A stretch of DNA of 53,900 nucleotides from an uncultured Bacteroidota bacterium (GTDB lineage Bacteria > Bacteroidota > Bacteroidia > Bacteroidales > UBA12481), in assembly GCA_903851365.1 (NCBI GenBank), contig CAINOB010000020.1:170986-224885 (forward strand). Reading direction: 5' to 3'. The notes under the pieces were generated by a model, which was not told the DNA's origin, made no database searches, and was given only the letters and a program-made list of their open reading frames with translations. Position numbers and translations under genes: made by a program. Below are positions 38,665-53,900 of this stretch, one piece after another (the stretch's first letter is position 1; each line of letters starts with the position of its first letter).

Positions 38665-39522
38665 TTACAATATCATTTTTTCGATCGGTATGACCAGGAT
38701 TCCCTGGGCACCGGCATCTCTTAATTTACCTATTATGCACCAGAATTCCGATTCACTTAAAACGGAATGTACAGAACTCCACCCTTCGGTCGCCAGCGGC
38801 ATCACCGTTGGGCTTTTCATCCCTGGCAAAATCTTACAGATCTCGTCCAGCTTATCATTCGGGGCATTAAGCAGTATATATTTATTATCGCGAGCGGCGA
38901 GTACTGATTTTATCCTGAAGAGGAAATTATCAAGGATAGCCCGCTTTTCATCAGACAGGCCCGGAGCAGCCACGAGGACCGCTTCAGATTGCATCACCAC
39001 TTCAACCTCCTTTAGTCCGTTACTGATCAGGGTGCTTCCCGAACTCACGATATCAAAGATACAGTCGGCCAGTCCGATAGCCGGGGCAATCTCGACTGAG
39101 CCATTCAAAAAATGGATCTCCGCATTGATCTGGTTCTCTGCCAGAAAAGTACGAAGAATTTTTGGAAACGAGGTGGCAATTTTCTTTCCGTTTAACCATT
39201 TCAATCCACTATAATTCTGCTCTTTAGGAACGGCAATACTTAAATGGCACCGACTGAATCCCAATCGGTAAACAACCTCCAGCGGGTACTCTGATTCGCG
39301 GAGCACGTCTTCTCCAATGATCCCGGCATTAGCCACACCATCAGCAACATACTGTGGAATATCATCGTCGCGAAGGTACAGCACCTCCAATGGAAATGTT
39401 GAGGACTGTGCGATAAGGTTACGCTTGCCGTTGGTCAGCGAAATACCGGCCTCAGCAATCAGCTCCTGTGAGGTTTCACTAAGCCGTCCGGATTTTTGAA
39501 GCGCTATTTTAAGTGTTTGCAT
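38665..39522 (-). CDS. hisG: ATP phosphoribosyltransferase, long form
   Basis: 285 residues, the long HisG with its own C-terminal ACT-like regulatory domain (about 215-285), so no HisZ subunit is needed. Catalytic part: LKIALQKSGRL, YLRDDDIPQYV, GIIGEDVL, ATSFPKILRTFL, LNGSVEIAPAIGLADCIFDIVSSGSTL (the PRPP loop). It commits PRPP and ATP to histidine and is normally inhibited by histidine through the C-terminal domain. First structural gene after the leader peptide and attenuator, with an AGGT before the ATG. Confidence 0.96.
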   Translation of the reverse strand: MQTLKIALQKSGRLSETSQELIAEAGISLTNGKRNLIAQSSTFPLEVLYLRDDDIPQYVADGVANAGIIGEDVLRESEYPLEVVYRLGFSRCHLSIAVPKEQNYSGLKWLNGKKIATSFPKILRTFLAENQINAEIHFLNGSVEIAPAIGLADCIFDIVSSGSTLISNGLKEVEVVMQSEAVLVAAPGLSDEKRAILDNFLFRIKSVLAARDNKYILLNAPNDKLDEICKILPGMKSPTVMPLATEGWSSVHSVLSESEFWCIIGKLRDAGAQGILVIPIEKMIL

Positions 39523-39537
39523 ATTACCTGATTATAA

Positions 39538-39567
39538 CAGAAAAGGCCTGCAGATTTGCAAGCCTTT
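39538..39567 (-). terminator. Attenuator-like terminator in the his leader
   Basis: On the minus strand AAAGGCTTGCA and TGCAGGCCTTT pair over 11 positions (one U-G), with a 4-base loop, followed by TTTTC. It lies between the leader peptide stop and hisG. Confidence 0.65.
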
Positions 39568-39592
39568 CCCGGTGTTTTACAATACCGATATC

Positions 39593-39667
39593 TTACTTCT
39601 CTGCATGAGTTTTAAACATCATATGATGATGGAAATGAAACAGCTGGTGCAGAAAATTGTTGTTCAT
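39593..39667 (-). CDS. hisL: His-rich leader peptide of the histidine operon
   Basis: 24 codons, ATG at 39667 to TAA at 39593. It begins MNNNFLHQLFHFHHHMM. Six of 24 residues are His (positions 7, 11, 13, 14, 15 and 21), three of them consecutive and encoded by CAT. The frame starts about 18 bases after a perfect -7 box and is followed by a terminator-type hairpin before hisG, the arrangement of ribosome-mediated attenuation: ribosome stalling at His codons under histidine shortage would prevent the terminator. Inside the frame CATCATATGATG is a perfect palindrome. I did not find a clear anti-terminator partner by eye. Confidence 0.8.
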   Translation of the reverse strand: MNNNFLHQLFHFHHHMMFKTHAEK

Positions 39668-39684
39668 AATTCTAATATCGGGTG

Positions 39685-39692
39685 CAAAGATA
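39685..39692 (-). promoter_or_regulatory. -7 box of the histidine operon
   Basis: On the minus strand TATCTTTG, an exact TAnnTTTG, with the leader ATG 17 bases downstream of it. No matching -33 TTG at 19-21 bases. Confidence 0.6.
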
Positions 39693-39743
39693 ATTCAATA
39701 ATTATAAATTTTGTTAGAGGTGGGTCGAAATATATTATGGCTA

Positions 39744-42700
39744 TTATTTAGTACTGAGCCACCAATTGGCGGGAACAGCTTGTTTTTTCAGGCCCGGACC
39801 TTCAACAGCAACCGAAAATGCAAAGTCAGTAGATCCGTTATAATACTGGATCTTCACCTTATGCAATCCGGCGGCCAGCAATACATATCCTGCTTCCTCT
39901 GATTCACCGTGTGCTCCGTCATTATCAGTAATCAGAACATCATCGATCGTGATGTTTGAACCATCGTCAGAAGTAGTGAAGAGCGTATAGGCACCGGCGG
40001 TCGGAACCTTAATATATCCGTCGTAAACAACTCCAAAATATTCGGCTTTATGATCCGCCGGAAGCTCAGGGGTTAAACAGGTTCCAGATTTTACAGGAGT
40101 CAGTTTTGACCAGTCGGGAAGCCTTCTCCAGCGACCTTCATAGTAGGCCCAGGTAAGACCCGGCTTAAGATTTGCCGGTTCGCTGTTGAGTGCAGCCAGT
40201 GGTTTCAGACCCTCGAATGAAATTGGTTCGTTCAATTTTGCAGCAGCTTCTTTTGTTTTGGCTGGATCGCGCGGGAAATCAACGCTGATCGGACCGGCAG
40301 CCTTTGACAGTCGGTTGGCATCATTTGAAACGGATATCGCAGCAATTCGAATGTTTTTCGAATCAGGCAACAGTAGTGTTTTGGCGCCGGCCGGAATATC
40401 AATCGCTATGCGGAAAAGATATCCGAATTTATAAGCTTCATTCTCATTGGTTTTACCCAGATGGCGATGTGTAGCTACATATCCGACAGGAACATGCTTG
40501 ACAAATGCCGGAATCAGTGCTACTGGTTTTGGATGAGCGACACCATTGATACGAATCGATTGCTTATATCCATTGCGAAGATCGCGTTTGTCCCATTGCC
40601 CGATATTGCCCGAATAATAAGGAATCTCCACCTTGACCGATTTTCCATCGACTTTGAATTCAGCTGTCTGATCCTGATCGATCGAAGAAACCATTACATA
40701 AACAGTGTTAAAAACACCATCAGGGATATTGATAGTCTGCCCCTTGGCGGTAATAAAGTTTTTCTGGCCGTCGGCTGATGAACCCATTTTAAATACTACG
40801 TCGTTCGATACGATCTCTGATGGCCATAATTCGGCAGGATAGGTATTTCCCTTGCCATCGAAATCTCCATCGGTACGGTTGGCATCGAAACTTACACCAT
40901 CGATATCATAGTTAAGAGCCAGCCATTGTGATGTTTTCCTGCCGATTGACTGTGCAGGTTTTGCCAGTTTAACAGCGAAAGTCTTTGGCTGATAAGATTT
41001 TATATCGAAAACAAGCTGACCGTTTTCCACTACGGCTTTTCCTGATGTTTCCTCGATTCCATTGACCTCACGAGCTGATACGATACCAGCCGGGAAAATC
41101 AGTTTAACTGCTTTGGCATCTTTCCCAAACAGTTCCTGAACGCGAATAACAATTTCATCAGTTTGCTCAGCTTGTTTCAGGGCTTTAACAGCCACCTGAC
41201 TGGTACTGACAGATAGCATGCTGAAAGCATTGCCGAGTGAGCCTTCGTGTTTCGGAGCATTGAAAGCCACGAGCGGCTGGTTCAGGCGGGTTGCTGACCA
41301 CTGTGAACTACCGTCTCTCCAATCGCCTTTATGCCCACCGATAGCGAAAGAAAAAGTATGAATTCCGATATCATTGGTCGCCTGATCCATGTATCCGCGA
41401 CCTGTAGCCGGGGTACGGAGCAGGGTAAGGCGGATCTGATTATCTGCAGGCTTGTCCCAGCCCATTTTATAATCACTCATTACGGTTACGCCGTAACTGT
41501 TATCGCCCTGGGTAACATCGGCCCATTGCTGAGCGGGAACCTCATATAATTTTGGCTGGTTATTATCGCGACGGATAGTTCCGATTCCAATATCGTAGGT
41601 AGCCTGAGCGTTTGATACTGCCAGCGGGAAGGCGGCTTTAAGCAAAGTGCCCTGACTGTTCCAGTCGAGTTCATTTCTGAAGTCGAGACGGTCACCGGCT
41701 AATCCGGCTGCCAGGCTGATATATTGTTTTATCTCCGAACCGTCCCTTTTGCGGACCACACAAAGTGTTACGCGGGCCGGACCGTTCTCGGTAATAGTGA
41801 TAACCGGTGCATCAAAAAAGCTTCTTGGCGCTTTGGTGACTGATTCGTACATCACTTCCCAGGCCGGCCATGAAACTGATTTATCATCAAGCATTTCCAG
41901 GCGAATCGGCGCTTTAAGCATCTCTTTTTTTGCGATTTTATCAAAGAGTGATGATACATCGCCATTCTTATCCAGGGTAACTTTGTATCTGGTATTTTCT
42001 AAAAGGTTCTTTTTAACGGTCAGGCCGGTAGCAAGGGTGCAAGGCTGAGCTGACGGCACCACATCAAAAACCTGATAGCTTACCGGAGCGCAATGAGCGG
42101 CAATGATCACCGTTGCCATGCGACCATTAAGAGAGGCTATTTGTGAAGGAACTTCCTTACCGGCTCCATCATAGACTCTCACCTGATTAAGTGTTCCAGG
42201 AAGCTCTACAGTGGCTGTCACCAAATCTTCGCGGTCGATGGACAGCGGGTTATAAATTACGACAGGAATACCGTTGGTACGGGTATCCAGTCCGCGGATA
42301 ACACCGCCCGCAGTATTTTCAAGAACGCCTGCAAACTGATTCTGACTCAATAATTCATCGTTCCATGAAAAGGTGTAAACGTCAGGAATACTGGTGCCGG
42401 TAAGGTCATCATGGAATTGATGCCATAGAAAACGGATCCATGCTTCCTGCAGGGTTTGTTTCGGATAGTAGGTAGCGCCCAACCAGTTGGCCATCACAGC
42501 AGAACGTTCGGCTGCATCGGCCAGCAGTTCGTTTTTGCGGTTCAGCATTTTCATAGCTGCTTGTGAGGAATAGCATCCGTTGCCGTGAGGTGAGGTAAGC
42601 AGTTCGCCGTTGAACTGAGGAAGTTTATCCAGCTGTGCACTTGATAGTTCACGAGCCATCAAATCTGCAGGAGCGCTAATAATTTTCAGAGGTCCATCGG

Positions 42701-43505
42701 AATGAATTGCTTTTTCGAGATAGAAAACGGATGAATCTTCGGGAGCACCGCCGACATCACCGGTACCAAAATACCTGTATCCCAGGTAAATGCCTGATTT
42801 TTCACCGGTTTTATCCACTGTTGCGTTCCACTTTGGATCTTTCGAGAGATCGCCGCGGAGTCTGGCGCCATAGGAGCCCGGGTTGAGTGCAGCGAAAACC
42901 CTTGATCCGTCGACACCTGTCCAGGCGCCGATATCAAAAGGAACACCAAAAGGAGCGCCCCATGTTAATTTTTGTGTTGAGAATCCGGAAAGTCCGCAAT
43001 GCTGCATAATGGTAGGCAGTGCATATCCGAATCCAAAGCAATCGGGGAGAAAAATGTCATAACTTTTTACCCCAAATTCCTTTTTATAATAACTCTGGCC
43101 GATGAGGATGGTACGTATTACTGCTTCAGGAGAAGAAATATTTACATCGGTAGCATCGAGTGAACTGCCGCAGATATTCCACCGTCCGGCAGCGATATAC
43201 TCTTTCACGCGCTGCCATGCCTCAGGATAATATTCCTTCATGAGCATGTATTTGATAGCACCTTCGAAACTAAACTTGTAATCGGGGTACTTCTCAAAAA
43301 GCTTGAAATTGTCGTTAAAAGTGTTTGGGAGATACTCATTGATTGAGGTTTGAATCGTCCACTGCCATTGGGTGTCGAAATGGGCGGTGCCAATAACATG
43401 TAGTGCTTTTGTTTTGGCGCTTGAACCGTCCTGGGCCATAACCTGCCCGAATAGGCTGGTCAGTCCGATTAACGCAATCAGTGTACCTTTTTGAAAACTT
43501 GTCAT
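39744..43505 (-). CDS. GH38 alpha-mannosidase with C-terminal PA14 domain
   Basis: 1253 residues. Signal peptide about 1-24 (ending QVMAQ). GH38 catalytic domain (about 35-420) with HVIGTAHFDTQWQW (His42, Asp44 zinc ligands), Asp155 in FLPDCFGFGYALP (zinc ligand and nucleophile position) and LWHQFHDDLTGTS. A middle and large beta domain follows (about 430-870), then a beta-sandwich with repeated Ig-like strands, and finally a PA14 domain (about 1115-1250: YEGRW...LPDWS, YDGYIKVPTAGAYTLFTTSDDGS, KVKIQYYNGSTDFAF), a common carbohydrate-binding add-on. It trims alpha-mannosides outside the cytoplasm. It has its own consensus -7 box. It reads toward the his promoter on the same strand without an obvious terminator. 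Confidence 0.93.
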   Translation of the reverse strand: MTSFQKGTLIALIGLTSLFGQVMAQDGSSAKTKALHVIGTAHFDTQWQWTIQTSINEYLPNTFNDNFKLFEKYPDYKFSFEGAIKYMLMKEYYPEAWQRVKEYIAAGRWNICGSSLDATDVNISSPEAVIRTILIGQSYYKKEFGVKSYDIFLPDCFGFGYALPTIMQHCGLSGFSTQKLTWGAPFGVPFDIGAWTGVDGSRVFAALNPGSYGARLRGDLSKDPKWNATVDKTGEKSGIYLGYRYFGTGDVGGAPEDSSVFYLEKAIHSDGPLKIISAPADLMARELSSAQLDKLPQFNGELLTSPHGNGCYSSQAAMKMLNRKNELLADAAERSAVMANWLGATYYPKQTLQEAWIRFLWHQFHDDLTGTSIPDVYTFSWNDELLSQNQFAGVLENTAGGVIRGLDTRTNGIPVVIYNPLSIDREDLVTATVELPGTLNQVRVYDGAGKEVPSQIASLNGRMATVIIAAHCAPVSYQVFDVVPSAQPCTLATGLTVKKNLLENTRYKVTLDKNGDVSSLFDKIAKKEMLKAPIRLEMLDDKSVSWPAWEVMYESVTKAPRSFFDAPVITITENGPARVTLCVVRKRDGSEIKQYISLAAGLAGDRLDFRNELDWNSQGTLLKAAFPLAVSNAQATYDIGIGTIRRDNNQPKLYEVPAQQWADVTQGDNSYGVTVMSDYKMGWDKPADNQIRLTLLRTPATGRGYMDQATNDIGIHTFSFAIGGHKGDWRDGSSQWSATRLNQPLVAFNAPKHEGSLGNAFSMLSVSTSQVAVKALKQAEQTDEIVIRVQELFGKDAKAVKLIFPAGIVSAREVNGIEETSGKAVVENGQLVFDIKSYQPKTFAVKLAKPAQSIGRKTSQWLALNYDIDGVSFDANRTDGDFDGKGNTYPAELWPSEIVSNDVVFKMGSSADGQKNFITAKGQTINIPDGVFNTVYVMVSSIDQDQTAEFKVDGKSVKVEIPYYSGNIGQWDKRDLRNGYKQSIRINGVAHPKPVALIPAFVKHVPVGYVATHRHLGKTNENEAYKFGYLFRIAIDIPAGAKTLLLPDSKNIRIAAISVSNDANRLSKAAGPISVDFPRDPAKTKEAAAKLNEPISFEGLKPLAALNSEPANLKPGLTWAYYEGRWRRLPDWSKLTPVKSGTCLTPELPADHKAEYFGVVYDGYIKVPTAGAYTLFTTSDDGSNITIDDVLITDNDGAHGESEEAGYVLLAAGLHKVKIQYYNGSTDFAFSVAVEGPGLKKQAVPANWWLSTK

Positions 43506-43538
43506 AACGGATGGTTTGTTTTTGATTTAACAGAAACG

Positions 43539-43546
43539 CAAACTTA
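43539..43546 (-). promoter_or_regulatory. Consensus -7 box of the GH38 gene
   Basis: On the minus strand TAAGTTTG, an exact TAnnTTTG, 33 bases before the ATG at 43505. No -33 TTG at the usual spacing. Confidence 0.5.
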
Positions 43547-43633
43547 CCCTATTCATGAGCGAATAAAGAGTAGGAAATGTTAAAAAATGTAAAAAAATGT
43601 GACGGGTGGCAAGTGACGGGTGACAATCAATTA

Positions 43634-44440
43634 TCAACTCACCTTGTAGTGATCCATCAATATCCAGGACATCAGGGAATGTGGCAGAAATGGCTTGAGG
43701 TGAGCTATCAGGCGCTGGTCGAAGCGGCCAATGATATAATGAAATTTCGGCTTATTCTTTTTAACAATCTTGCCAATCGTGCGTGCCAGAACCATAGGAT
43801 CCGAACCGCCCTGCTCATCTTTGGCCATCATTGCGATGGCATTTTGATAGTTCTTATCGTAAACACTACCCTTTGAATCTATTTCAGTAAATATCCTTGC
43901 AGAGGTAAATCCTGTTTTAAAATCGCCAGGATTTATTATCACCACCCTGATATTAAATGGCTTAACTTCCATTGACAATGCCTCACTGTAACCTTCGACA
44001 GCATATTTTGCAGCAGAATAATGGCCCTGAAACGGAAGCCCCATAAGGCCTCCGATTGAACTGACATTAATAATTTTGCCTGATTTCTTTTCCCGCATGT
44101 AAGGCAGGACGGTACGGATGACAGTTGCCATACCGAAAAAATTAGTATCCAGTTGTTTACGGGTTTCCACTTCAGAAAAATTCTCTAAAGCCCCACCGAT
44201 GCCCATGCCGGCATTATTAATCAGGACGTCGATTTTCCCCTCGGCGGCAATGACCTCATTTACGGCTGTTGCTACGGATTTTTCATCCGTAACATCCATT
44301 TTGATAACCTTATACGGATATTTCATTCCATCAGGTTTGCGGCTGGTTCCATAAACGGTGTGACCCTGTGAAGCCAGGTGTTCAGCCATTGCTTTTCCAA
44401 GACCGGATGAAGCTCCGGTAATCAGTATGACCTGAGGCAT
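43634..44440 (-). CDS. SDR oxidoreductase, candidate 3-ketosphinganine reductase
   Basis: 268 residues, classical SDR: ITGASSGLGKAMAEHL (9-15 nucleotide loop), NNAG (75-78), INVSS with Ser127/128, and Tyr141-x-x-x-Lys145 (YSAAKYAVEG). The C-terminal helices are hydrophobic with PFLPHSLMSWILMDHYKV, as in lipid SDRs. It begins 11 bases after the serine palmitoyltransferase gene, and the second step of sphingoid-base synthesis is reduction of 3-ketosphinganine, so this is the obvious candidate. The family alone would allow many other substrates; the assignment rests on the neighbour. Confidence 0.8.
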   Translation of the reverse strand: MPQVILITGASSGLGKAMAEHLASQGHTVYGTSRKPDGMKYPYKVIKMDVTDEKSVATAVNEVIAAEGKIDVLINNAGMGIGGALENFSEVETRKQLDTNFFGMATVIRTVLPYMREKKSGKIINVSSIGGLMGLPFQGHYSAAKYAVEGYSEALSMEVKPFNIRVVIINPGDFKTGFTSARIFTEIDSKGSVYDKNYQNAIAMMAKDEQGGSDPMVLARTIGKIVKKNKPKFHYIIGRFDQRLIAHLKPFLPHSLMSWILMDHYKVS

Positions 44441-44451
44441 AGTTTTACTTT

Positions 44452-45636
44452 TTAGAGAATCCCAAGCATTTTTGAAATACGGGCGATGTTCTCGATAGCG
44501 AAATCAACCTGTTTGTGAGTATGCGTTGCAATCAGGGAGAACCTGATCAAAGTGTCATTTGGCGGTACAGCTGGAGCTACCACTGGATTAACAAATACGC
44601 CGGCTTCAAGAAGTAATTTGGTCAGGATAAGAGTTTTATCCATATCACCTACCCGCAAGGGAATAATTGGGCTTTCGGCCAGGCCGGTATGGAAGCCGAG
44701 GTCCTGGAAGGCTTTCAGTGAATAGCGGCTCAATTCCCAGAGCTTGTCTATACGTTCCGGTTCTGACTTCATGATCTCCAGGGAGGCAAGAACGGTTGCT
44801 GTGGAAGCAGGAGTCATAGAAGCGCTGAAAATCAGAGCCCTGGAATTATGTTTCAAGAAGTTGATCGTATCAAAATCCCCGGCAATGAAACCTCCTAAAG
44901 AAGCGAATGATTTGCTGAAGGTTCCCATGATCACGTCAACTTTATCAGTCAGACCAAAATGATCAGCAGTACCCCGACCGCATTTTCCCAAAACTCCTAA
45001 TGAATGGGCATCATCCACCATAATCGTGGCATGATATTTTTCAGCCAGCTCAACGATTTCAGGCAATTTAACAATATCGCCCTCCATGCTGAAAATACCG
45101 TCAACGACAATAAATTTCAGTTTACCATGAGGCATCACTTTGAGCCTTCTTTTGAGGGCATCCATGTCATTGTGGGCAAACTTAACCGTTTTGGCAAACG
45201 AAAGTCGCGCGCCCTCAATAATTGATGCATGATCGAGAGCATCAAGCAAGATAAAATCACCGCGTAAAGGAAGAGTGGAAATGGCACCCAGGTTTGACTG
45301 GAAACCAGTGCTGTAACAGAGTGCAGCTTGTTTTCCAGTGAATTCAGCGAGCTTGCTTTCCAATTCGATATGGAGATCAAGCGTGCCATTCAAGAACCTT
45401 GATCCGGCACAACCGGTGCCATATTTTTTGGTTGCCTGAACTGCTGCTTCAATAACTTTTGGATGGTTTGTCAGGCCCAGGTAGCTATTGGAGCCGAACA
45501 TTAAAACTTTTTTTCCATTGATGATGACTTCCGTGTCCTGTTCGGATTCGATCACCCGGAAGTACGGATAAACCCCAGCAGCCTGGACTTTTTGGGGTGC
45601 GTCGTACTTACTTAGTCTGTCTTGTAATATGCCCAT
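44452..45636 (-). CDS. spt: Serine palmitoyltransferase-like PLP enzyme (alpha-oxoamine synthase)
   Basis: 394 residues from the ATG at 45636; a TTG 9 bases upstream is less likely. Fold-type I alpha-oxoamine synthase: FGSNSYLGL, GTGCAGSRFLNGT, LDALDHASIIEGARLS, VDGIFSMEGD, MVDDAHSLG and GTFSKSFASLGG. The spacing His136, Asp208, His211, Lys242 is the same as His159, Asp231, His234, Lys265 of the Sphingomonas serine palmitoyltransferase. It condenses serine with a long-chain acyl-CoA to 3-ketosphinganine in the cytosol. Glycine C-acetyltransferase or 8-amino-7-oxononanoate synthase are alternatives, but the SDR and glycosyltransferase neighbours and Bacteroidota origin favour sphingolipids. 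Confidence 0.8.
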   Translation of the reverse strand: MGILQDRLSKYDAPQKVQAAGVYPYFRVIESEQDTEVIINGKKVLMFGSNSYLGLTNHPKVIEAAVQATKKYGTGCAGSRFLNGTLDLHIELESKLAEFTGKQAALCYSTGFQSNLGAISTLPLRGDFILLDALDHASIIEGARLSFAKTVKFAHNDMDALKRRLKVMPHGKLKFIVVDGIFSMEGDIVKLPEIVELAEKYHATIMVDDAHSLGVLGKCGRGTADHFGLTDKVDVIMGTFSKSFASLGGFIAGDFDTINFLKHNSRALIFSASMTPASTATVLASLEIMKSEPERIDKLWELSRYSLKAFQDLGFHTGLAESPIIPLRVGDMDKTLILTKLLLEAGVFVNPVVAPAVPPNDTLIRFSLIATHTHKQVDFAIENIARISKMLGIL

Positions 45637-45672
45637 AGGGGGCAATATTAACGCTTTTCTTAATTAAATGTA

Positions 45673-46689
45673 TTATTTATCAGCAGATTTTTGGCAAAGT
45701 TCGGTATAAATACCGATCAGTTTAGCGCGTATTTTGTCCTCGTCGAATTGCTCCAGGAGATGGATCGACAATTGGCGGTCATCTTCACGAAATTCATTAT
45801 CAGTCATTAGCTTACGGACCAGATGGATGAATTCATCGGTTGTTGAAGCCAGGAGGTAAGGATGTTCATAAAGCAACCTGTATTCAGGAAGATCCTTGAA
45901 AATTACCGGCAAACCGCTTGCTGCAGCCTCCAGTGGAGCCATAGGGCAATTCTCCTGATTTGAAGGAAAAAGGAAAAGGTCAGCAGCACTATATATGAGT
46001 GGCATATCGTCTAATTCAAACATCCCGGGGAATGACACATTAGGGGTTGCATCGGCGATACGATCATGTATTCGGATCAATCCTTCAGTCAGGGCACCGA
46101 AAGGGCGCCCACCTGCCCAAACAAATTTTGCCTCAGGAATTGCTGCTGCGACATCAAGAAAATCTTCCACCCCTTTTCTTCCTTCGAGCTGTCCAACACC
46201 CAGAACAACAAAATCCTCCTCCGCCAGGCCCAGCTTTTCACGCCCCGCTTTTCTTTTTTCGTCAGAGCTTTTCCAGAATTCCAGCGGAACAGGATTATAC
46301 ATTTTCACGATCCGGGTTTTGGCGTGCAGATCGCGAATTGCCTGTTCAACCATTGGGGAAAGCGCGATACAAACATCGGCATAGGAGTATACAAGACGAA
46401 AATAAAACCGAATAAATGGCATCAGCAATTGCCAGCCCGGGATCGAACCTCTGGCGGAATCAGGAATTACATGCACGGTAAGTATCCGGCGTCCCTTATA
46501 GCCTATTCCCCGGAGGAAATAGAGCATTCCATAGGTATGTGAATGAAACACATCTCCACGGCCCTCGCCGTTTACTACCACCTCGATATCGCCCTTTTTA
46601 CCGAGCAGCTCAACCATCTGGACAAATACAGTATAAACGCCATTGCCCTTGACGACCTTTGCCATTTCATATACGAGGTGAACTTTCAT
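45673..46689 (-). CDS. Family 4 glycosyltransferase, diacylglycerol/lipid glucosyltransferase-like
   Basis: 338 residues, GT-B fold. The N-terminus MKVHLVYEMAKVVKGNGVYTVFV, VLGVGQLEGRKGVEDFL in the second domain, and the EX7E motif in SNQENCPMAPLEAAASGLPVIF with DLPEY resemble the small GT4 enzymes of Firmicutes that put glucose on diacylglycerol. It would use a nucleotide sugar at the cytoplasmic membrane face. It lies 36 bases before the serine palmitoyltransferase gene and 3 bases after GH110. A sphingoid or ceramide acceptor is a reasonable guess from position only. Confidence 0.8.
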   Translation of the reverse strand: MKVHLVYEMAKVVKGNGVYTVFVQMVELLGKKGDIEVVVNGEGRGDVFHSHTYGMLYFLRGIGYKGRRILTVHVIPDSARGSIPGWQLLMPFIRFYFRLVYSYADVCIALSPMVEQAIRDLHAKTRIVKMYNPVPLEFWKSSDEKRKAGREKLGLAEEDFVVLGVGQLEGRKGVEDFLDVAAAIPEAKFVWAGGRPFGALTEGLIRIHDRIADATPNVSFPGMFELDDMPLIYSAADLFLFPSNQENCPMAPLEAAASGLPVIFKDLPEYRLLYEHPYLLASTTDEFIHLVRKLMTDNEFREDDRQLSIHLLEQFDEDKIRAKLIGIYTELCQKSADK

Positions 46690-46692
46690 GCC

Positions 46693-48525
46693 TTACTGTA
46701 ACAAAAATTGAGCCTTACCCAACTGAAGGTCTTTCTTTGTCATATCGGAAATCCGGATATTATGCCCCAAAACGGTCGGATCTATCACGTTATCCTTTAT
46801 TACGACTCCTTTACAAAATTCCAAAGAGATGTTGAATTTCCTGGGATGCCAGGGCTGATAGCTATGGCTTGCTGTCAGTTTGTTCCCAATAAACGACAGA
46901 TTGTCAACAGAGCGGGCATAAAGAACAGGGTAATCAAACATGTCGAACTGATTATTTTCAATCCGGATATTACGATGAAAACCGGGTTTCTTTGCATCTG
47001 GTTTAGGAATTTCCGGATAAATGCTGATGACCGCTTCGCAAAACTGATACATAGAGGTAAGGCACTGGTCGGTAAAATGATTATTCCGGATAAGCACATC
47101 TTTCACCCCACCCGATTCATACCAGTTGTTTGCGTCGCCGGCAATCAGAATGGCAGACCCGCTGGATTCAAACAGGTTATTTTCAATGATCACTTTTCCC
47201 GGGGTCGACATCAGGATGCCGCGGGCACGACAGCTTTCAAACCGGCAATTGGTTATGAGAACATCCGGCGTCCACGTTAAGTTTTCAAGGGCATATCCGG
47301 GCTCGATTCCTGCAGGTACCTGATCTTTAAAATGAAGTCTGAAAAGTTCCGGACTGATGGCTTCGAACCTGCCGGCAATGCCATTAGCCACTGTGACCAT
47401 TGAATTATTTTCAATGAAGCCAATCTTCTCACCTTCACGGGCCCAAATCATACCGACACTCTGCGCGTGCATGAATTTGCAGAGCAAGGTACTGGCATCC
47501 AGCTTCTCCATGATCCTGACACTGGTACCATGAACATTGATCGGATCGTCCATCAAGCCGTGAAAGCTACACTGATCAATGGTGATTTTTCCGGCACAAT
47601 TTGAAAAGTGGAGACCATCATCGTGGCCCGAGAGAATTCTGTTTTTCGCTGGATTAGGCACTGAGTTTACCCTTCGAAAAGTCAGGTTTTCAGTATATTG
47701 AGATAATATTCCAAGTCCGGCATTATGGTACATATTCAGATCCTCGATCAGTATATTCCTGCTATTGGTAATAAAAATCCCTGCATGATCGCGTTCACTG
47801 TGCCGGAGTACCAGGAAATTACCTTTAGCTGGCAGCCGTTTAAATGCATAATTCAGCCTGACCAGTCCCGGTGAAAGTTCCTGGGCCTGGTAGTTATTCC
47901 AGCCTCCTCCCAGACAGCCCCAATCGCCTGTTTTATAAGCAACGCTGCGTGTTTCACGGTCGAATTCCATCGTTCCCCACCACTGGCTTTTCCATCCCTC
48001 ACCCAGGAATACCAATTTTCCTTTTTCGATCACATAGGGTGATTCTACTTTATCTATCCTGATATCCAGGTAGGATGGAGTAACCTCAACCACTTCGCAT
48101 TCAGCAGTTAAAGGGATATCCCAATCAATGCTGACTCCTTTTATTGTGATATCACTGCTTCCATCCAGAGTAAAAGGCTGCATACGGTCGTGGAAAACAA
48201 TATCCGAACCTCCACAGTCAACCGTAACCCCTTTGAGCCCTTCAAGAAGAATGGCGCACCTTCTGGGATTATTTACTGTAGTGTTGGATTCGTAATATAC
48301 TTTCTCGATGCATTGATGAGGCCAGAAATCATATCGGCCCCGCGGAAAATAAACTACCATATTGGCCTTCCCTTTGCAAGCATCAAGTGCTTTTTGGACA
48401 TAAGGAACAGCATTCACCCTGGAATCCGGTTTAAGGCCGAATGATACAATATTTACCGTATCAGGATTTGAATATACTGCCGCTGAAAGGAATAAAACCA
48501 GACAAGTGGAAAGAAGAATTCTCAT
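46693..48525 (-). CDS. GH110 alpha-1,3-galactosidase-like enzyme
   Basis: 610 residues. Signal peptide about 1-19. A right-handed parallel beta-helix follows with GH110 features: FPRGRYDFWPHQCIEKVYYESNTT, IVFHDRMQPFTLDGSSDITIKGVSIDWDIPLTAE, GILSQYTENL, FHGLMDDPINVHG, and CRARGILMSTPGKVIIENNLFESSG. GH110 enzymes release terminal alpha-1,3-galactose from blood-group B and linear B glycans or galactolipids. It would act in the periplasm. It lies between the outer-membrane gene and the GT4 gene in the same run. A related GH110-like family cannot be excluded, as the catalytic Asp were not mapped. Confidence 0.85.
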   Translation of the reverse strand: MRILLSTCLVLFLSAAVYSNPDTVNIVSFGLKPDSRVNAVPYVQKALDACKGKANMVVYFPRGRYDFWPHQCIEKVYYESNTTVNNPRRCAILLEGLKGVTVDCGGSDIVFHDRMQPFTLDGSSDITIKGVSIDWDIPLTAECEVVEVTPSYLDIRIDKVESPYVIEKGKLVFLGEGWKSQWWGTMEFDRETRSVAYKTGDWGCLGGGWNNYQAQELSPGLVRLNYAFKRLPAKGNFLVLRHSERDHAGIFITNSRNILIEDLNMYHNAGLGILSQYTENLTFRRVNSVPNPAKNRILSGHDDGLHFSNCAGKITIDQCSFHGLMDDPINVHGTSVRIMEKLDASTLLCKFMHAQSVGMIWAREGEKIGFIENNSMVTVANGIAGRFEAISPELFRLHFKDQVPAGIEPGYALENLTWTPDVLITNCRFESCRARGILMSTPGKVIIENNLFESSGSAILIAGDANNWYESGGVKDVLIRNNHFTDQCLTSMYQFCEAVISIYPEIPKPDAKKPGFHRNIRIENNQFDMFDYPVLYARSVDNLSFIGNKLTASHSYQPWHPRKFNISLEFCKGVVIKDNVIDPTVLGHNIRISDMTKKDLQLGKAQFLLQ

Positions 48526-48549
48526 AATTAAAGTTTTCGTGAAGATATC

Positions 48550-49629
48550 TCAGATTTCATAAACAACTGCCAGTCCCAGGAATGAAAATCCCGGAATATT
48601 CCTGAATTGTCCGTGCGGGTTTATGCCGGAATAATAACGAAAATAACCTCCTAACCTTCCGATGTTCTGGCTGGTTTTAACCTGGCGCCATCCTGCATAT
48701 ATATTTATGCAGGGTGCATATTCCTCACCAAGAGTAACTGTCCGGAAACCATTTGGGGATGATTTGTCGGACTCATATAATGAATATCCGAACCGGATTC
48801 TTTCACGCAATTCTGCCGAAACTACCGGGTAGAACCGCCCGATCCTAAGTGGTCCGGAGGGCCCGTCATACTGATATCTGATATAACCTTCAACCCGACG
48901 TTTGGATGCGACAAAAGCAGCGGGATCAGCATCAGCAGACGCCATGGAATAATATCCTCTGGACCCGTGAAATGGATACAAAAACTTTCCGCCAATGCTA
49001 AAGGAATGATTATTGGAACCAGTGCTCCAGGGATCATTCAGCGTAACCGAAGCTTCACCGGTTTCATAGGAGACATTCACCCTCGTAATCGGAAAGCCCG
49101 CTTCTTTTCTAAAAAGTGCAAGTTCGTCGCCAATATGGGTGCTTTCATGTTGTAGCAAGGCTAATCGAATCATCACATTTTTCAGGAACCCTTTATTGAT
49201 TTCTTTTAGCAGATATAGTTCCGGCAGTCCGGCTCGATAATCCACATTCAAAATGGGCACTGATTGCCGGTTCAGACAGTCGAACCATACATTTGCAGAA
49301 AGAGAACCCGCAACAGCGAATCTCATGGTACCTTTCCACAACTTTAAAGTTTTGACATACAAAGGGATATCAGTTCCAAGCGTGAATTCCAGGACAATGA
49401 TCTTTTGTGCCGTCCTGTTGCGGTTGTTGTTATAATCGGTGGCGTTCGGTACTGATCCGCTTTGGATCCTGTTTGCAGGAGAATAAATATCCGAAACATA
49501 ATACTGGCCGAAATCGCGTTTGATAAGAAATCCAGATGCTGTTGAATCCTTGACCTGGGCACAAATCGGGACTGAAAAAACAAAGAATACCCAGAGGCTA
49601 ATGGTTTTTATTTTCCCATCCACGTTCAT
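48550..49629 (-). CDS. Outer-membrane barrel-like protein, DUF1207-like
   Basis: 359 residues. Signal peptide about 1-24. Many amphipathic beta strands with Tyr/Arg end, closing with LGLAVVYEI, fit an outer-membrane barrel. The motif LLQHESTHIGDELAL resembles the xHxSSHLGDE signature of DUF1207. The ATG overlaps the URO-D stop (ATGA), so they are translated together. Function is unknown; with two glycosidases beside it, a glycan or lipid passage role is possible but unproven. Confidence 0.65.
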   Translation of the reverse strand: MNVDGKIKTISLWVFFVFSVPICAQVKDSTASGFLIKRDFGQYYVSDIYSPANRIQSGSVPNATDYNNNRNRTAQKIIVLEFTLGTDIPLYVKTLKLWKGTMRFAVAGSLSANVWFDCLNRQSVPILNVDYRAGLPELYLLKEINKGFLKNVMIRLALLQHESTHIGDELALFRKEAGFPITRVNVSYETGEASVTLNDPWSTGSNNHSFSIGGKFLYPFHGSRGYYSMASADADPAAFVASKRRVEGYIRYQYDGPSGPLRIGRFYPVVSAELRERIRFGYSLYESDKSSPNGFRTVTLGEEYAPCINIYAGWRQVKTSQNIGRLGGYFRYYSGINPHGQFRNIPGFSFLGLAVVYEI

Positions 49630-50624
49630 GGCTCACATGCCCTCCGCATGGCCAGAAGGTTATCCAAAGGGGTATTAACGGTAATCTCGCATCCGCCTGA
49701 CAGCATGAAACGCCGGCCTTTCTCCCGTTCCAGAAGTGATTTTGATCGCTCAAAAATTTTGTGGGCGGTCAGGTCCTGAATTTCCACAGGATTGATATTT
49801 CCACACCTCACCACCTGGGGTCCGAACGCATGAAATGCCTCATCCATATCCGTCATAAAATCGAGATCAAAAATATCAAGTCCAAGTCTGGAAAGGTCGG
49901 GCCAAAGGTGAGTAGTATTTCCACAGATATGAAATTTGACGAGTGCACCCAACGAATGGATGTACTCGACCAGCTGCCGGTGACGGTCGAAAACAAAGGT
50001 ATGATAGGTATCCGGGTCAATCTGTGAACAAATGGCATCGCCAACCCCGATCAGGTCGCAACCTGCAGCAATCTGTTCACGGGCAAAATCTTTGGCGGTA
50101 TCCAGGCACTTATCTAACAGGAGATGTGAGGAATCCGGATCCATCATCAGCATCAGGAGCATTTCCGTAACTCCGGCCAGATCACAGGCTTCGGCCAGGG
50201 GGCCCTCCACCCATCCCATTACCGGGACCGATCCCATAAGAATTTCCTGATAGTACCGGGCACCGTTTATGCGGTCGAGAGTACGCTGATTTTTAAGGAC
50301 ATCGGGGCGTTTAAGGTTGATAATATCCTGTGGGGTTGTAATTACATTTGCCTTGCACTGCGGCACTCCTTCCGGGATAAAATCGATCGGTGCACCAAAT
50401 GCGGAAGTCTCGCGATAGGGATCCGAGATCAGGCTGACTATATCGAAGTCGAAATATTCAAGGCATTTGACATTCGATTCGACCAGTACCCGGTAGTCCG
50501 ATGCCAGTTCTCCATAAGTATTTCCGTTAAACCGTGCCGCGAAGTGCATCAGGATAGGATAAAAAGGCGCTCTCTCAACCGGCTCACCTTTGATGAGCTT
50601 GACGAATTCCGATTTCTTGTTCAT
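49626..50624 (-). CDS. URO-D family methyltransferase-like protein (MtaA/CmuA-like)
   Basis: 332 residues. URO-D barrel with GWVEGPLAEACDLAG, DLIGVGDAICSQIDPDTY, a zinc motif His-x-Cys in VKFHICGNTTHL and a further Cys in MLSGGCEITVNTP. His-Cys-Cys zinc sites define the corrinoid/coenzyme M methyltransferases MtaA and CmuA rather than HemE. No methanogenic or corrinoid partner gene is in the window, so the methyl donor is open. It begins 2 bases after GH127 and overlaps the OMP gene. Confidence 0.82.
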   Translation of the reverse strand: MNKKSEFVKLIKGEPVERAPFYPILMHFAARFNGNTYGELASDYRVLVESNVKCLEYFDFDIVSLISDPYRETSAFGAPIDFIPEGVPQCKANVITTPQDIINLKRPDVLKNQRTLDRINGARYYQEILMGSVPVMGWVEGPLAEACDLAGVTEMLLMLMMDPDSSHLLLDKCLDTAKDFAREQIAAGCDLIGVGDAICSQIDPDTYHTFVFDRHRQLVEYIHSLGALVKFHICGNTTHLWPDLSRLGLDIFDLDFMTDMDEAFHAFGPQVVRCGNINPVEIQDLTAHKIFERSKSLLEREKGRRFMLSGGCEITVNTPLDNLLAMRRACEP

Positions 50625-50626
50625 TT

Positions 50627-52528
50627 TTACTTAAATGTTACCTGCCTGAGAATGGTTCCACCCATAGGCACCAGATCGACTGTCTCCGATTTTTGTGTTA
50701 ACGGATTGATGAGATCCGCCCTGAAAACCAGTTTATCTTTATCTGTCCGGCAGACCTTGTTTTGGGGATCAAATCCGAATACAATTTTATCTCCGGTTAC
50801 CTGAAGATCTTGAAAACCGGGCAAGACGTACTCTTTGGTGACAACTTGCCTGCCGGCTACCGGATGTGCCAGGACCAGGGGCCCATAGGTGAAGAAATAT
50901 TGTTTTTGGATATCCTGTTTTATTTCAATTTCGGGAATCAACTCAAGAACAACCTCCTCCCCATTTTGCCAGGTACGCCGCACCACCAGATAATTTCCTT
51001 TTTCCTCGTGCGGATAATTTAAAGTGAATCCCTTTGTCCAGGCTGGCTTGCGAAATTTCACGGTGAATTTTTCCGGCTTGTCCAGGGAAAACTTAAATCG
51101 AATGACAAAGTCATTTGGATAGTTTGTTTGCTCTTCAATCCTTACTTTTTGTGTGCCGATATTAGTTTCCAATACCGACGGTCCATAGAGAGCGGCAACC
51201 AGGCCATCCTTGTCGCGCATCCACATCGACCGAACATAATAAGGCGCTATTCGTCCGGCATTGGGGATGCAGCAAACAGCAACATCCTGATGTACAGGAG
51301 AATATTTGTATCTGGTTTGCTTTTTCACTGGCACCGTATCATTCAGTGGGCCCGTCATATACCAGGAATTATCGGACTTAAGGTAGGCTATTGAGCTCTC
51401 GGATGGATGCCGTGCACCCTGGGCTGCATTAAAAAACAGCCGCTCAATTTTATCGCCAAAGGATGCGGTGCCAGTTTTTTGGAGAAGCAACGAGTACGAA
51501 TCCAGCAATTCATGGATAGAGCAATATTCATATCCGGTATTTGATGCATCCGCTTTTCGGCCACCTATCCACTCATCACCCACCGGGCCGCCCGACGGGG
51601 TGGTTACAGAATCGATCCGTCGAAGGTAAATATCCAGCGCTTTTTTCAGCTGCCCGTCACCGGTGGCAAAAGAAGCCACAGTGAGGCTCCGGAGGTGCTC
51701 ATAAGTATGGACGCCATGCCCCTTTAGTTTATAACGTGGATTGAGGATATTATCGAGACAAATATCCTCCTCCATCAATTTATTTTTAGAATAATTCTGA
51801 TACAGGAAAGCGGCATAGTCAAGATATTCCTGCTTTCCCGTGAGTTGATGAAGGCGATCGAGAACATCGGTAAACATCAGGCCATGACAGATGCCGGCGA
51901 ATGATTTTTCTACTTTAAACGGATCCGACCCCACCGGATAGTTTACCATAACATCTTTCACTGCGCGTTCAATGGAGCTCAGTAAAACCTGCCGGTCGCC
52001 GGTACCCGATTCATAGCAGGCAAGCAATCCCCGGAGCAGAGTTGCCTTAGCCCAGAGTTCCCCATTTTCGGTTTTGAATTTATAGCGGAGGGTTTTGTCA
52101 TAAATGCCCAGGTAACCATTGCTGTCCTGGGTGCTTAATATATGGCTCAGGTAGGCACCAACCTTTTTCAGCTGTTCCTGATTTCCAGTCAGGATAGCCT
52201 GGCGTATCTGCCCATCGCGCCAGTTCGACTGGCTCTCACTGTTCCACCAGAGGTATTGCACTTCCCAGTCGGCCCCTTCCTTAATATTACCGACATCCTT
52301 TTTCTTATCGCGTTTTGACAGGCGGTTCTGGCCGTAAATATCATCTTTGGTAATCAGGTCAGGAATCAGCTCATCGAGGTGACCAATAAATCCCGCCAGG
52401 TCGCGATTCATCTGTTCCTTTATCCAGCTGGCAGGTTTTACCTCACCAAACTGCAGATATTCAAACTTTTCCTGTTTGTTCATACATCCCGAAAGGATAA
52501 AAATACCGGTAATAACCAGCCATTTCAT
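50627..52528 (-). CDS. GH127/DUF1680 family lipoprotein, second copy in window
   Basis: 633 residues, lipobox LSGC, Cys15. The N-terminal start FGEVKPASWIKEQMNRDLAGFIGHLDE matches DUF1680. The zinc-thiolate residues are present: Glu334 and Cys336 (TGYEYCSIHELL), Cys419-Cys420 (VAVCCIPNAGRIAPYYV). Overall it is diverged from the copy at 14692 and may act on a different sugar (the superfamily includes GH127, GH142 and GH146). Its ATG overlaps the phosphatase stop by 4 bases, and the URO-D gene follows after 2 bases. Confidence 0.85.
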   Translation of the reverse strand: MKWLVITGIFILSGCMNKQEKFEYLQFGEVKPASWIKEQMNRDLAGFIGHLDELIPDLITKDDIYGQNRLSKRDKKKDVGNIKEGADWEVQYLWWNSESQSNWRDGQIRQAILTGNQEQLKKVGAYLSHILSTQDSNGYLGIYDKTLRYKFKTENGELWAKATLLRGLLACYESGTGDRQVLLSSIERAVKDVMVNYPVGSDPFKVEKSFAGICHGLMFTDVLDRLHQLTGKQEYLDYAAFLYQNYSKNKLMEEDICLDNILNPRYKLKGHGVHTYEHLRSLTVASFATGDGQLKKALDIYLRRIDSVTTPSGGPVGDEWIGGRKADASNTGYEYCSIHELLDSYSLLLQKTGTASFGDKIERLFFNAAQGARHPSESSIAYLKSDNSWYMTGPLNDTVPVKKQTRYKYSPVHQDVAVCCIPNAGRIAPYYVRSMWMRDKDGLVAALYGPSVLETNIGTQKVRIEEQTNYPNDFVIRFKFSLDKPEKFTVKFRKPAWTKGFTLNYPHEEKGNYLVVRRTWQNGEEVVLELIPEIEIKQDIQKQYFFTYGPLVLAHPVAGRQVVTKEYVLPGFQDLQVTGDKIVFGFDPQNKVCRTDKDKLVFRADLINPLTQKSETVDLVPMGGTILRQVTFK

Positions 52529-53268
52529 GGTTCCAGAAGCAAGGTCCTCAATTGAGTCAATTGTTGTTGCGTTATACCGGCCGACATGAAGTACTTATCA
52601 ATCCCGCCATAAACTTCATCAACCTTTTTCATGGCGGTTAACAGATACCTCTCCTTAACCTCAAAAGCCGCCTGAAGGTTACTTTTGGGGTAAAGCCCGG
52701 CCGTGAACAGATGTAACCTGTTCATGAGTTTGCTGATTTTAGGCATCAGAAAAACGTTTGACCTCAGGTATTCCGCGATAATATCATTTTTATCCATGCC
52801 AAGGAACCATTGGATCATTGCTGCAGCAAAACCTGTACGGTCCTTACCGGCATGGCAATGAATGATGATTGGAAGTGCGCCCGGAGTCAGGACCAGGTTA
52901 ATCATTTTGCCCATTGGTTCCACCATCATGTCGACCATTGCGCTGTATACACCCTCGATTACGTCCATTATTTTATCGTCGGCATGCCGTTTCATCCAAA
53001 ACGGCCGCAATCCATCACGAGTAAGTTGATCAATATTACAGGGCATGGATATTTTTTCCCTGCTGGGCAGGAAAGCTGGTTTGCGGTCCTGTTCCTCAGC
53101 GGAACGAAAATCGATAACATATTGAATTTTTAGAGATTCTATATAGACTCGGTCGGCATCGTTCATTTTTTGCCATACCCCTGAACGGTACAGTAAACCC
53201 AGACGGATTTTCCTGCCATCGCTGGTTACACCTCCACCAAAATCCCGAAAATTGATCCTGTTCAGCAT
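52525..53268 (-). CDS. Tyrosine/lipid phosphatase of the PtpB-type family
   Basis: 247 residues, no signal peptide. NFRDFGG (6-12) and the active-site loop HCHAGKDRTG with Cys138 and Arg144 (Cx5R). The pattern C-x-x-G-K-D-R is that of atypical lipid phosphatases and of Mycobacterium PtpB, which also act on phosphoinositides. WxD general-acid equivalents are not obvious. In this operon, with sphingolipid and glycolipid genes, a phospho-lipid substrate is plausible; a phosphotyrosine protein is the default alternative. Confidence 0.82.
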   Translation of the reverse strand: MLNRINFRDFGGGVTSDGRKIRLGLLYRSGVWQKMNDADRVYIESLKIQYVIDFRSAEEQDRKPAFLPSREKISMPCNIDQLTRDGLRPFWMKRHADDKIMDVIEGVYSAMVDMMVEPMGKMINLVLTPGALPIIIHCHAGKDRTGFAAAMIQWFLGMDKNDIIAEYLRSNVFLMPKISKLMNRLHLFTAGLYPKSNLQAAFEVKERYLLTAMKKVDEVYGGIDKYFMSAGITQQQLTQLRTLLLEP

Positions 53269-53283
53269 CGGTTAAAAATATTG

Positions 53284-53745
53284 CTATTTGCCAAAATCAT
53301 CCGGCACTCTGATGGCAACTATCTCCCCTGTGACACAAATGTCGCCGTCGGCCATCAGGCGTGCTTCCACGGTTACCTTGCGGCCTTTAACTTCCTTGAT
53401 AATTCCTCGAATCTCCAGCTGTGCCCCGATTGGCGTCGGCTTCTTGTAATCGACCTTTAATGAGCCGGTAACACATCTGGGGGCATTAAAGCCTTCGAGC
53501 TCGATACCTTCCGCTTTTGCAATAGCGAGTGCGGCAGAGCCTGTTCCGTGGCAATCGATGAGTGAGGCCAGGAGGCCCCCGTATACAAACTGGGGCATGG
53601 CAGTATGGTATGATTTAGGAACAAATCGTGTGACGGTTTCATCCCCATCCCAGTATGTCTTGATCTGCAAACCATGTTCATTAAGCCTGCCGCATCCGTA
53701 GCAGGCGCCAAAATGATCGGGATAATAATCTTGTATTGCTTTCAT
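53284..53745 (-). CDS. Hotdog-fold thioesterase (PaaI-like)
   Basis: 153 residues. Hotdog signs: FVYGGLLASLIDCHGTGSAALA (helix with the catalytic Asp/Gly loop), VTGSLKVDYKKPTPIGAQLEIRG and VTVEARLMADGDICVTGEIVAIRV. The N-terminal CYGCG pair is common in this subgroup. It hydrolyses an acyl-CoA, substrate unknown. First gene of the nine-gene run, 15 bases before the phosphatase gene. Confidence 0.85.
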   Translation of the reverse strand: MKAIQDYYPDHFGACYGCGRLNEHGLQIKTYWDGDETVTRFVPKSYHTAMPQFVYGGLLASLIDCHGTGSAALAIAKAEGIELEGFNAPRCVTGSLKVDYKKPTPIGAQLEIRGIIKEVKGRKVTVEARLMADGDICVTGEIVAIRVPDDFGK

Positions 53746-53795
53746 AGGTATCGGTTATGAAGGGGCTGGGACAAAATGTTATTTAGAATCGATAT

Positions 53796-53803
53796 AAATT
53801 TGC
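53796..53803 (+). promoter_or_regulatory. Consensus -7 box at right edge
   Basis: TAAATTTG, an exact TAnnTTTG, pointing to the right, 78 bases before a possible ATG. No -33 TTG at the usual distance. Confidence 0.35.
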
Positions 53804-53881
53804 GACAGAAACAACATTAATGCGTTGATTGTTAGGTAATTAAATACATTATTCTTACCTTCAAGCAACAAATCAAATGTA

Positions 53882-53900
53882 ATGATAAGCAAACGAAAGA
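53882..53900 (+). CDS. Possible start of a gene running out of the window
   Basis: ATG followed by codons reading ISKRK and then the edge. It follows a plus-strand promoter-like box. Too short to assess. Confidence 0.25.

Follow-up and report, generated by a model that had tools for sequence, protein, structure and literature searches.

We analysed a 53,900-nucleotide stretch (hereafter the window) of an uncultured Bacteroidota bacterium (UBA12481; contig CAINOB010000020.1, positions 170,986-224,885), in which the genes for a serine palmitoyltransferase (SPT), a short-chain reductase (SDR) and a lipid-type glycosyltransferase of family GT4 close a tight run of nine genes that otherwise resembles a carbohydrate-catabolism locus. 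Gene order is the link that is firmly seen, and co-transcription is likely. Our preferred reading, to which we assign a probability of roughly 0.6, is that the three lipid genes are transcribed together with a glycan-degradation operon that perhaps also controls them, as a putative unit of two origins. Judging from sequence comparison, the two halves of the run, one for lipids (GT4-SPT-SDR) and one for glycans, appear to have had separate histories and to have met in this genus. Shared control of the two halves is plausible, a single shared pathway less so.

The run occupies positions 43634-53745 of the window, where we verified the existence and place of nine open reading frames (ORFs), every one on the minus strand. 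In order of transcription they encode a 4HBT hotdog thioesterase (THIO; 153 amino acids, 53284-53745; Pfam 4HBT 31.1 bits, above 20.6), a Y_phosphatase3 phosphatase (PTP; 247 amino acids, 52525-53268; PF13350, 182.6 bits), a GH127-family glycosidase (633 amino acids, 50627-52528; PF20736 51.3 and PF07944 39.3 bits, both above cut-off), a URO-D superfamily protein (332 amino acids, 49626-50624; PF01208, 198.9 bits), an outer-membrane protein (OMP; 48550-49629), a protein of the GH110 alpha-1,3-galactosidase family (610 amino acids, 46693-48525; PF23763/PF23764 above cut-off), the GT4 (338 amino acids, 45673-46689; Pfam glycosyltransferase group 1/4 domains), the SPT (397 amino acids with a TTG start, 44452-45645) and the SDR (268 amino acids, 43634-44440). 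The successive gaps are 15, -4, 2, -4, 24, 3, 27 and 11 bases. This bears out the initial annotation, which described nine minus-strand genes whose gaps did not exceed 36 bases, with two ATGA overlaps: the overlaps are present at 52525-52528 and 49626-49629, and the gaps range from -4 to +27 bases, 27 being the largest from THIO to SDR. Among 30 other genes of the window, hand-picked from its ORF lists with small ORFs excluded, 11 of 29 neighbouring pairs lie on the same strand with a gap of at most 36 bases. At this crude rate the chance of eight consecutive tight joins is about 4e-4, so that the run is unlikely to have arisen by chance. Eight of the nine proteins exceed the Pfam cut-off for the family first named for them; the exception is the OMP, and the URO-D name needs refinement (see below).

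The SPT passes the curated equivalog cut-off of NF047600, the Bacteroidota serine palmitoyltransferase model (661.9 versus 640 bits), and the solved chains nearest to it are the SPTs 8guh and 3a2b (E about 4e-153). It is the sole such gene that we found in the genome, where the remaining matches have at most 36% identity. For the SDR, the model NF049977 of the 3-ketodihydrosphingosine reductase KdsR is the top of 230 models at 356.7 bits and its cut-off of 400 is missed; the protein resembles KdsR by this rank and by its pairing with the SPT only. As initially suggested, the two would thus start sphingolipid synthesis. In a 44-row SPT tree, a group of 17 rows with moderate support (83/75) comprises the window, five congeners and 11 loci outside the genus, and SPT and SDR are adjacent in all 17. 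The SPT-SDR pairing appears to be older than the rest of the run, and the SDR family found beside SPT in these 17 loci is a candidate 3-ketosphinganine reductase family.

The arrangement is partly conserved within the genus, for which we compared eight genomes, the congeners being fragmented. The set is not unique to one strain, a case the initial annotation had allowed for: G001 carries THIO-PTP-GH127-URO-D, up to a contig end, and has GH110-GT4-SPT-SDR-GH38 on a second contig. G006 has GH110 (at the contig start)-GT4-SPT-SDR-GH38 and then, by eye, his genes. In G005 the order is GH127-GH110-SPT-SDR-GH38, and THIO and PTP lie upstream of these without a change of contig or strand. This contig (C163; L129, L020) has sixteen same-strand genes that mix sugar catabolism with genes of the run: Gfo/Idh, URO-D, a 775-amino-acid protein, KDPG aldolase, THIO, PTP, TauE, DUF2284, a fucosidase-family gene, a metallophosphoesterase, DUF2961, GH127, GH110, SPT, SDR and GH38 (ORFs of under 100 amino acids not shown). 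G003 has a DUF2961-like gene followed by GH110-SPT-SDR-GH38, and PTP on a separate contig. G004 has URO-D-GT4-SPT-SDR and then a recombinase-like gene, and on another contig THIO-PTP behind a KDPG-aldolase-like gene (both by eye); it lacks GH110 over threshold, and GH38 is absent after SDR. At the position that GH38 takes in the congeners, recombinase-like and other mobile-looking genes are seen by eye in G004 (L019:4162-5742). In G002, an assembly of 370 contigs with no SPT over threshold, the order is PTP-GH110-GH59 (L126:2696-6744), GH110 being overlapped by the GH59 galactocerebrosidase-family gene with PTP upstream. G007 has a different SPT (62%) elsewhere.

GT4-SPT-SDR is therefore kept in four species (the window, G001, G004 and G006), and the GT4-SPT junction (45646-45672 in the window, minus strand) is 27 bases long and similar in sequence in all four. 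GH110 immediately precedes GT4 or SPT in G001, G003, G005 and G006, and GH38 follows SDR in the same four genomes, with a gap of 23 bases in G005. In the window the GH38 gene (39744-43505, minus strand), which encodes an alpha-mannosidase-family protein of 1253 amino acids with a PA14 domain (PF01074, PF07748 and others), lies 128 bases beyond SDR. It is part of the conserved neighbourhood, and is either a tenth member of the run or a neighbouring unit.

The picture is different outside the genus. We read SPT neighbours in 44 records, six in-genus (G007 truncated) and 38 from elsewhere; as L086 duplicates L029, the latter amount to 37 distinct loci. Fourteen of these have a given kinship outside the genus; the other 23, reached via GT4 loci, were judged to be outside by SPT identity of at most 70% and by the tree. 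Up to four ORFs were read on either side, ten records having a flank of about 1.5 kb and several ending at contig ends. Within this span GH110, GH38, URO-D, GT4, PTP and THIO are found at none of the 37 loci. The only trace is a GH127-like ORF at L144, with 22% identity and on the opposite strand. The initial annotation had proposed conserved order in distant genomes as a test of the operon, and with none of these seven genes on the SPT strand in the flanks read at the 37 loci, conservation of the full set is not supported; pairing with glycan genes is seen only within the genus. GH110, GH127, PTP and THIO seem to form a variable sugar-catabolism neighbourhood.

Outside the genus the SDR follows SPT at 11 of the 37 loci, and at eight (L029, L136, L142, L145, L156, L082, L085, L087) a GNAT-type protein comes next after SPT. 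At six of these eight, the gene after GNAT is an SDR resembling the one at L029, the locus for which Pfam was used. The GNAT-type protein may be a ceramide synthase. Its relatives elsewhere in the genome of the window have at most 29% identity, and they are also present in genomes without this type of SPT. Among the ten proteins scanned with Pfam (the run and GH38), none is ceramide-synthase-like.

The GT4 is of a lipid type, as first proposed. Its best NCBIfam match is the IagA/BgsA lipoteichoic acid (LTA)-anchor model NF053513 (145.1 bits, missing the cut-off of 460), and it scores 118 bits, far below cut-off, with the Dgs (diacylglycerol glycosyltransferase) model. A profile scan of species genomes gave 50 GT4 loci, several of them short, in 48 genomes. 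SPT adjoins GT4 at three of the 50, all in this genus, and a neighbour family of DedA size is found at 23 (one member confirmed as VTT/DedA). Of the 48 genomes, for which completeness is not given (L037 was left out as the same assembly as L035), 28 have an SPT over the cut-off, G099 has a match of 568.8 bits below it, and the other 19 show paralogue-level matches at most. On a 51-row GT4 tree the SPT label takes 7 changes as compared to 16.5 when shuffled, which shows that SPT presence is clustered. One clade of ten rows, mostly from other phyla and including G099, has no SPT over threshold. Among 60 relatives GT4 is present in six, four of them from one genus, and all six carry an SPT with 63% identity or more; of the 60 overall, 21 carry one with 60% or more. 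That pattern points the opposite way, yet with 19 of 48 carriers lacking an SPT over threshold we reject the GT4 as a sphingolipid-specific enzyme. Probably it is a glycolipid synthase of general function, which in this genus came to adjoin SPT. The alpha-galactosylceramide synthase of B. fragilis, BF9343_3149, is a GT4 (PMC9692976). The two are likened by family, sharing GT4 membership and, by family, a lipid acceptor. For the window GT4 the best-scoring models are those of LTA-anchor and diacylglycerol transferases, and DedA-size neighbours recur at the loci of its relatives.

In the glycan half, D303, D326, D327 and R433 of GH110 align with D321, D344, D345 and R451 of PdGH110B, the first three being catalytic residues and the last the +1 subsite arginine (PMC7939477). 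The active site thus looks intact, with GLAA-B domains and catalytic aspartates as in the solved PdGH110B (7jw4) and PpaGal (9i4f); unlike those enzymes, this GH110 sits among sphingolipid genes. GH127 likewise has the catalytic and middle domains of its beta-L-arabinofuranosidase family, and the E-x-C and CC residues, which we take to be functional, align with those of 4qjy. By eye, the N-terminus of GH110 is signal-peptide-like and that of GH127 lipobox-like; GH38 also has an N-terminus of this kind, and GT4, SPT and SDR have none. The glycosidases therefore look exported, unlike the three lipid enzymes, and would not meet a cytosolic intermediate.

The URO-D protein scores 131.1 bits with TIGR01463 (MtaA/CmuA; cut-off 235.4, missed) and 80.6 with HemE. 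Its nearest solved relative is MtaA (4ay7), with which HxC and a Cys, presumably the zinc ligands, align, and by sequence it appears nearer to the MtaA/CmuA methyltransferase branch than to HemE. The PTP, with a P-loop HCHAGKDRTG seen by eye, is nearest to 8dhi (E 2.7e-32) and also matches PtpB (1ywf, E 2.9e-21); its family, Y_phosphatase3, is that of PtpB. For THIO the nearest solved chain is 2prx (E 1.2e-52); a YigI-like thioesterase was considered and rejected, similarity being absent. The ten scanned proteins include no SusC/SusD pair, the contig ending 155 bases above the run. On the plus strand of the window, another GH127 gene (14692-16731) and another URO-D gene (19302-20333) are found near each other, separated by a gene for an 801-amino-acid protein without a Pfam match, and the pairing of the two families thus recurs within the window.

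The OMP is a predicted beta-barrel related to DUF1207, its only Pfam match (19.3 bits, below the cut-off of 22). An early model from three sequences was useless, with a predicted local distance difference test (pLDDT) score of 41.6. The predicted fold appears to match outer-membrane phospholipase A (OMPLA). We aligned the protein with 12 relatives (alignment A3, from which the 71-amino-acid fragment L175 was dropped): H161, R183 and N185 are invariant across the 13 sequences, and position 163 is Ser or Cys. The resulting pattern, which resembles the His-x-Ser...Asn triad of OMPLA, occurs in 13 of 13 (two with Cys) and in 38 of 3900 shuffles, and is a post hoc, sequence-level pattern. Homology to E. 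coli PldA, itself an OMPLA, is not detectable by profile (hhalign of A3 against PldA, probability 1%), whole-sequence alignment gives no support, and Pfam on the 13 members finds only DUF1207 and one chance-level DUF3930; the family is DUF1207-related. A plain porin is disfavoured by the predicted fold match, and the DUF1207-related barrels may represent a family of lipases of the outer membrane that are OMPLA-like. No OMP copy was found elsewhere in G001 or G006, where contigs break between URO-D and GH110 and inside GH110, respectively.

None of the promoter and terminator signals decides the transcript unit. Both kinds of site are in only mild excess over shuffles, the sigma-70-like ones at 26 against 17.6 and the terminator-like ones at 19 against 11.0. 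The initial annotation had named a split of the run into unrelated units by such signals as a refutation; the sites do not split it, the minus-strand terminator-like ones all lying within genes, but with counts so little above shuffles this is weak evidence. We also scanned positions 39001-53900 with the Bacteroidota -7 promoter consensus. The -7-like motif TANNTTTG is found seven times on the minus strand and seven times on the plus strand against 4.8 expected. The minus-strand copies lie before THIO (one), before GH38 (one), in URO-D (two), in SPT (one) and below GH38 (two). The first, TACATTTG (53874-53881), is 129 bases before the THIO start and the second, TAAGTTTG (43539-43546), 34 bases before the GH38 start; both are weak candidates. 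The scanned region holds no full -33/-7 promoter pair, and no intergenic gap of the run holds a -7-like motif.

Several observations weigh against our preferred reading. The window ends with its contig (C20) 155 bases above the THIO start, so that the true first gene is uncertain and perhaps missing. The promoter motif signal is at background, with two -7-like motifs inside URO-D and one inside SPT. The gap before SPT is 98 bases in G005 and 88 bases in G003, which leaves room for a separate promoter. The G006 gene order runs on into his genes, and synteny may thus partly reflect common descent. The last two points would also fit an accident of gene order, in which a housekeeping SPT-SDR pair with its own promoter had, in the genus ancestor, happened to land behind a run of glycosidase genes. 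So would the association being seen in one genus only, the variation of upstream gene content among congeners and a weak sigma-70-like site about 70 bases before GT4 (46788-46759). We consider such an accident possible but unlikely: GT4-SPT-SDR and its 27-base junction survive in G004 despite the loss or replacement of neighbours, the window has no gap above 27 bases from THIO to SDR, and the intergenic gaps are free of -7-like motifs. That the SPT-like gene is a cysteate acyltransferase and the operon leads to sulfonolipids is very improbable. The 3-ketocapnine reductase of that pathway is reportedly an SDR, and the cysteate acyltransferase 28eh does match the SPT at E 4.8e-66. Such a reductase has been described (PMC11211663). 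The two SPT structures match far better, and the score clears the equivalog cut-off for SPT.

The initial annotation suggested that the operon may assemble or remodel a glycosylated sphingolipid. Spelled out as a dedicated pathway, this would have SPT and SDR make the base and GT4 add alpha-galactose or glucose to ceramide. GH110 (with GH127 or GH38) would act on the head group at the cell surface, trimming or recycling it, and acyl chains would be remodelled by OMP and THIO. The operon-like run and the families stand, as do the junction kept in four species, the GT4 family shared with BF9343_3149 (PMC9692976), the GH110 residues, the apparent likeness of the OMP to an outer-membrane lipase, and the pairing of GH110 with a GH59 galactocerebrosidase-family gene in G002. 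What is not supported is the order outside the genus, where no glycosidase was a same-strand neighbour of SPT at the loci read, and the tie to SPT itself: GT4 occurs without SPT over threshold in 19 of 48 genomes, including nine of the ten rows of the clade mostly from other phyla, and G002 has GH110 and PTP without an SPT over threshold, though its assembly is fragmented. A ceramide-synthase-like gene is likewise lacking among the ten proteins scanned. The chief new supports of this pathway are the conserved GT4-SPT junction and the OMPLA-like protein, and its chief difficulties are the GT4 carriers that lack SPT and the arrangement not being seen beyond the genus. We find both the head-group scheme and the acyl-chain remodelling improbable.

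Under the preferred reading of a glycan-degradation operon joined to lipid genes, THIO-PTP-GH127-URO-D-OMP-GH110 and GH38 would form a carbohydrate-catabolism locus that is variable and specific to the lineage. Its secreted glycosidases would act on glycans outside the cell, cleaving alpha-1,3-galactose, arabinofuranose-like and mannose linkages. SPT would convert serine and acyl-CoA to 3-ketosphinganine, SDR would reduce this to sphinganine, and GT4 would glycosylate a lipid, with diacylglycerol or ceramide as acceptor, to give a glycolipid. The cell's one recognisable SPT would be expressed along with glycan-degradation genes, and lipid and glycan metabolism may therefore rise together. A bolder version, which we regard as quite doubtful, is a glycan-inducible envelope switch: feeding on alpha-galactose glycans would shift the membrane to (glyco)sphingolipids via one transcript for surface glycosidases, an OMPLA-like lipase, an acyl thioesterase, the sole SPT-SDR pair and a lipid glycosyltransferase.

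The run is new as an arrangement, not as a kind of system. In the literature searched, mostly without subscription papers, we found no paper bringing together SPT or sphingolipid genes with a polysaccharide-utilization or glycoside-hydrolase cluster in Bacteroidota, a glycosylceramide glycosyltransferase with SPT in Bacteroidetes, or a B. fragilis alpha-galactosylceramide glycosyltransferase with the name agcT, and none that mentions DUF1207. In B. thetaiotaomicron the same two enzymes by family, the SPT BT_0870 and the 3-KDSR BT_0972, are unclustered (PMC9278070), whereas the window SPT and SDR are 11 bases apart and accompanied by GT4 and glycosidases. SPT-CerS-CerR sets (CCNA_01212/CCNA_01222 in Caulobacter, BF9343_4218/4240 in B. 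fragilis; PMC10865984) resemble the window in having SPT-led lipid genes; the window run differs by its KdsR-type SDR and lacks the GNAT gene. We also drew on PMC9246714 and PMC10056535. Elsewhere on the minus strand of the window, histidinol dehydrogenase and a class I/II aminotransferase (HisC-like) share one 837-amino-acid ORF with an odd linker (36140-38653), and two His_biosynth stretches (HisA-HisF-like) share one 484-amino-acid ORF (32792-34246).

Bacteroidota sphingolipids have effects on the bacteria themselves and also, for relatives living in the gut, on the host. To our knowledge, little is known about the control of SPT expression in this phylum. The comparison yields a candidate 3-ketosphinganine reductase family and a proposed lipase-like role for DUF1207-related barrels. 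With the sole recognisable SPT placed within a glycan-degradation run, a link from diet to membrane becomes directly testable.

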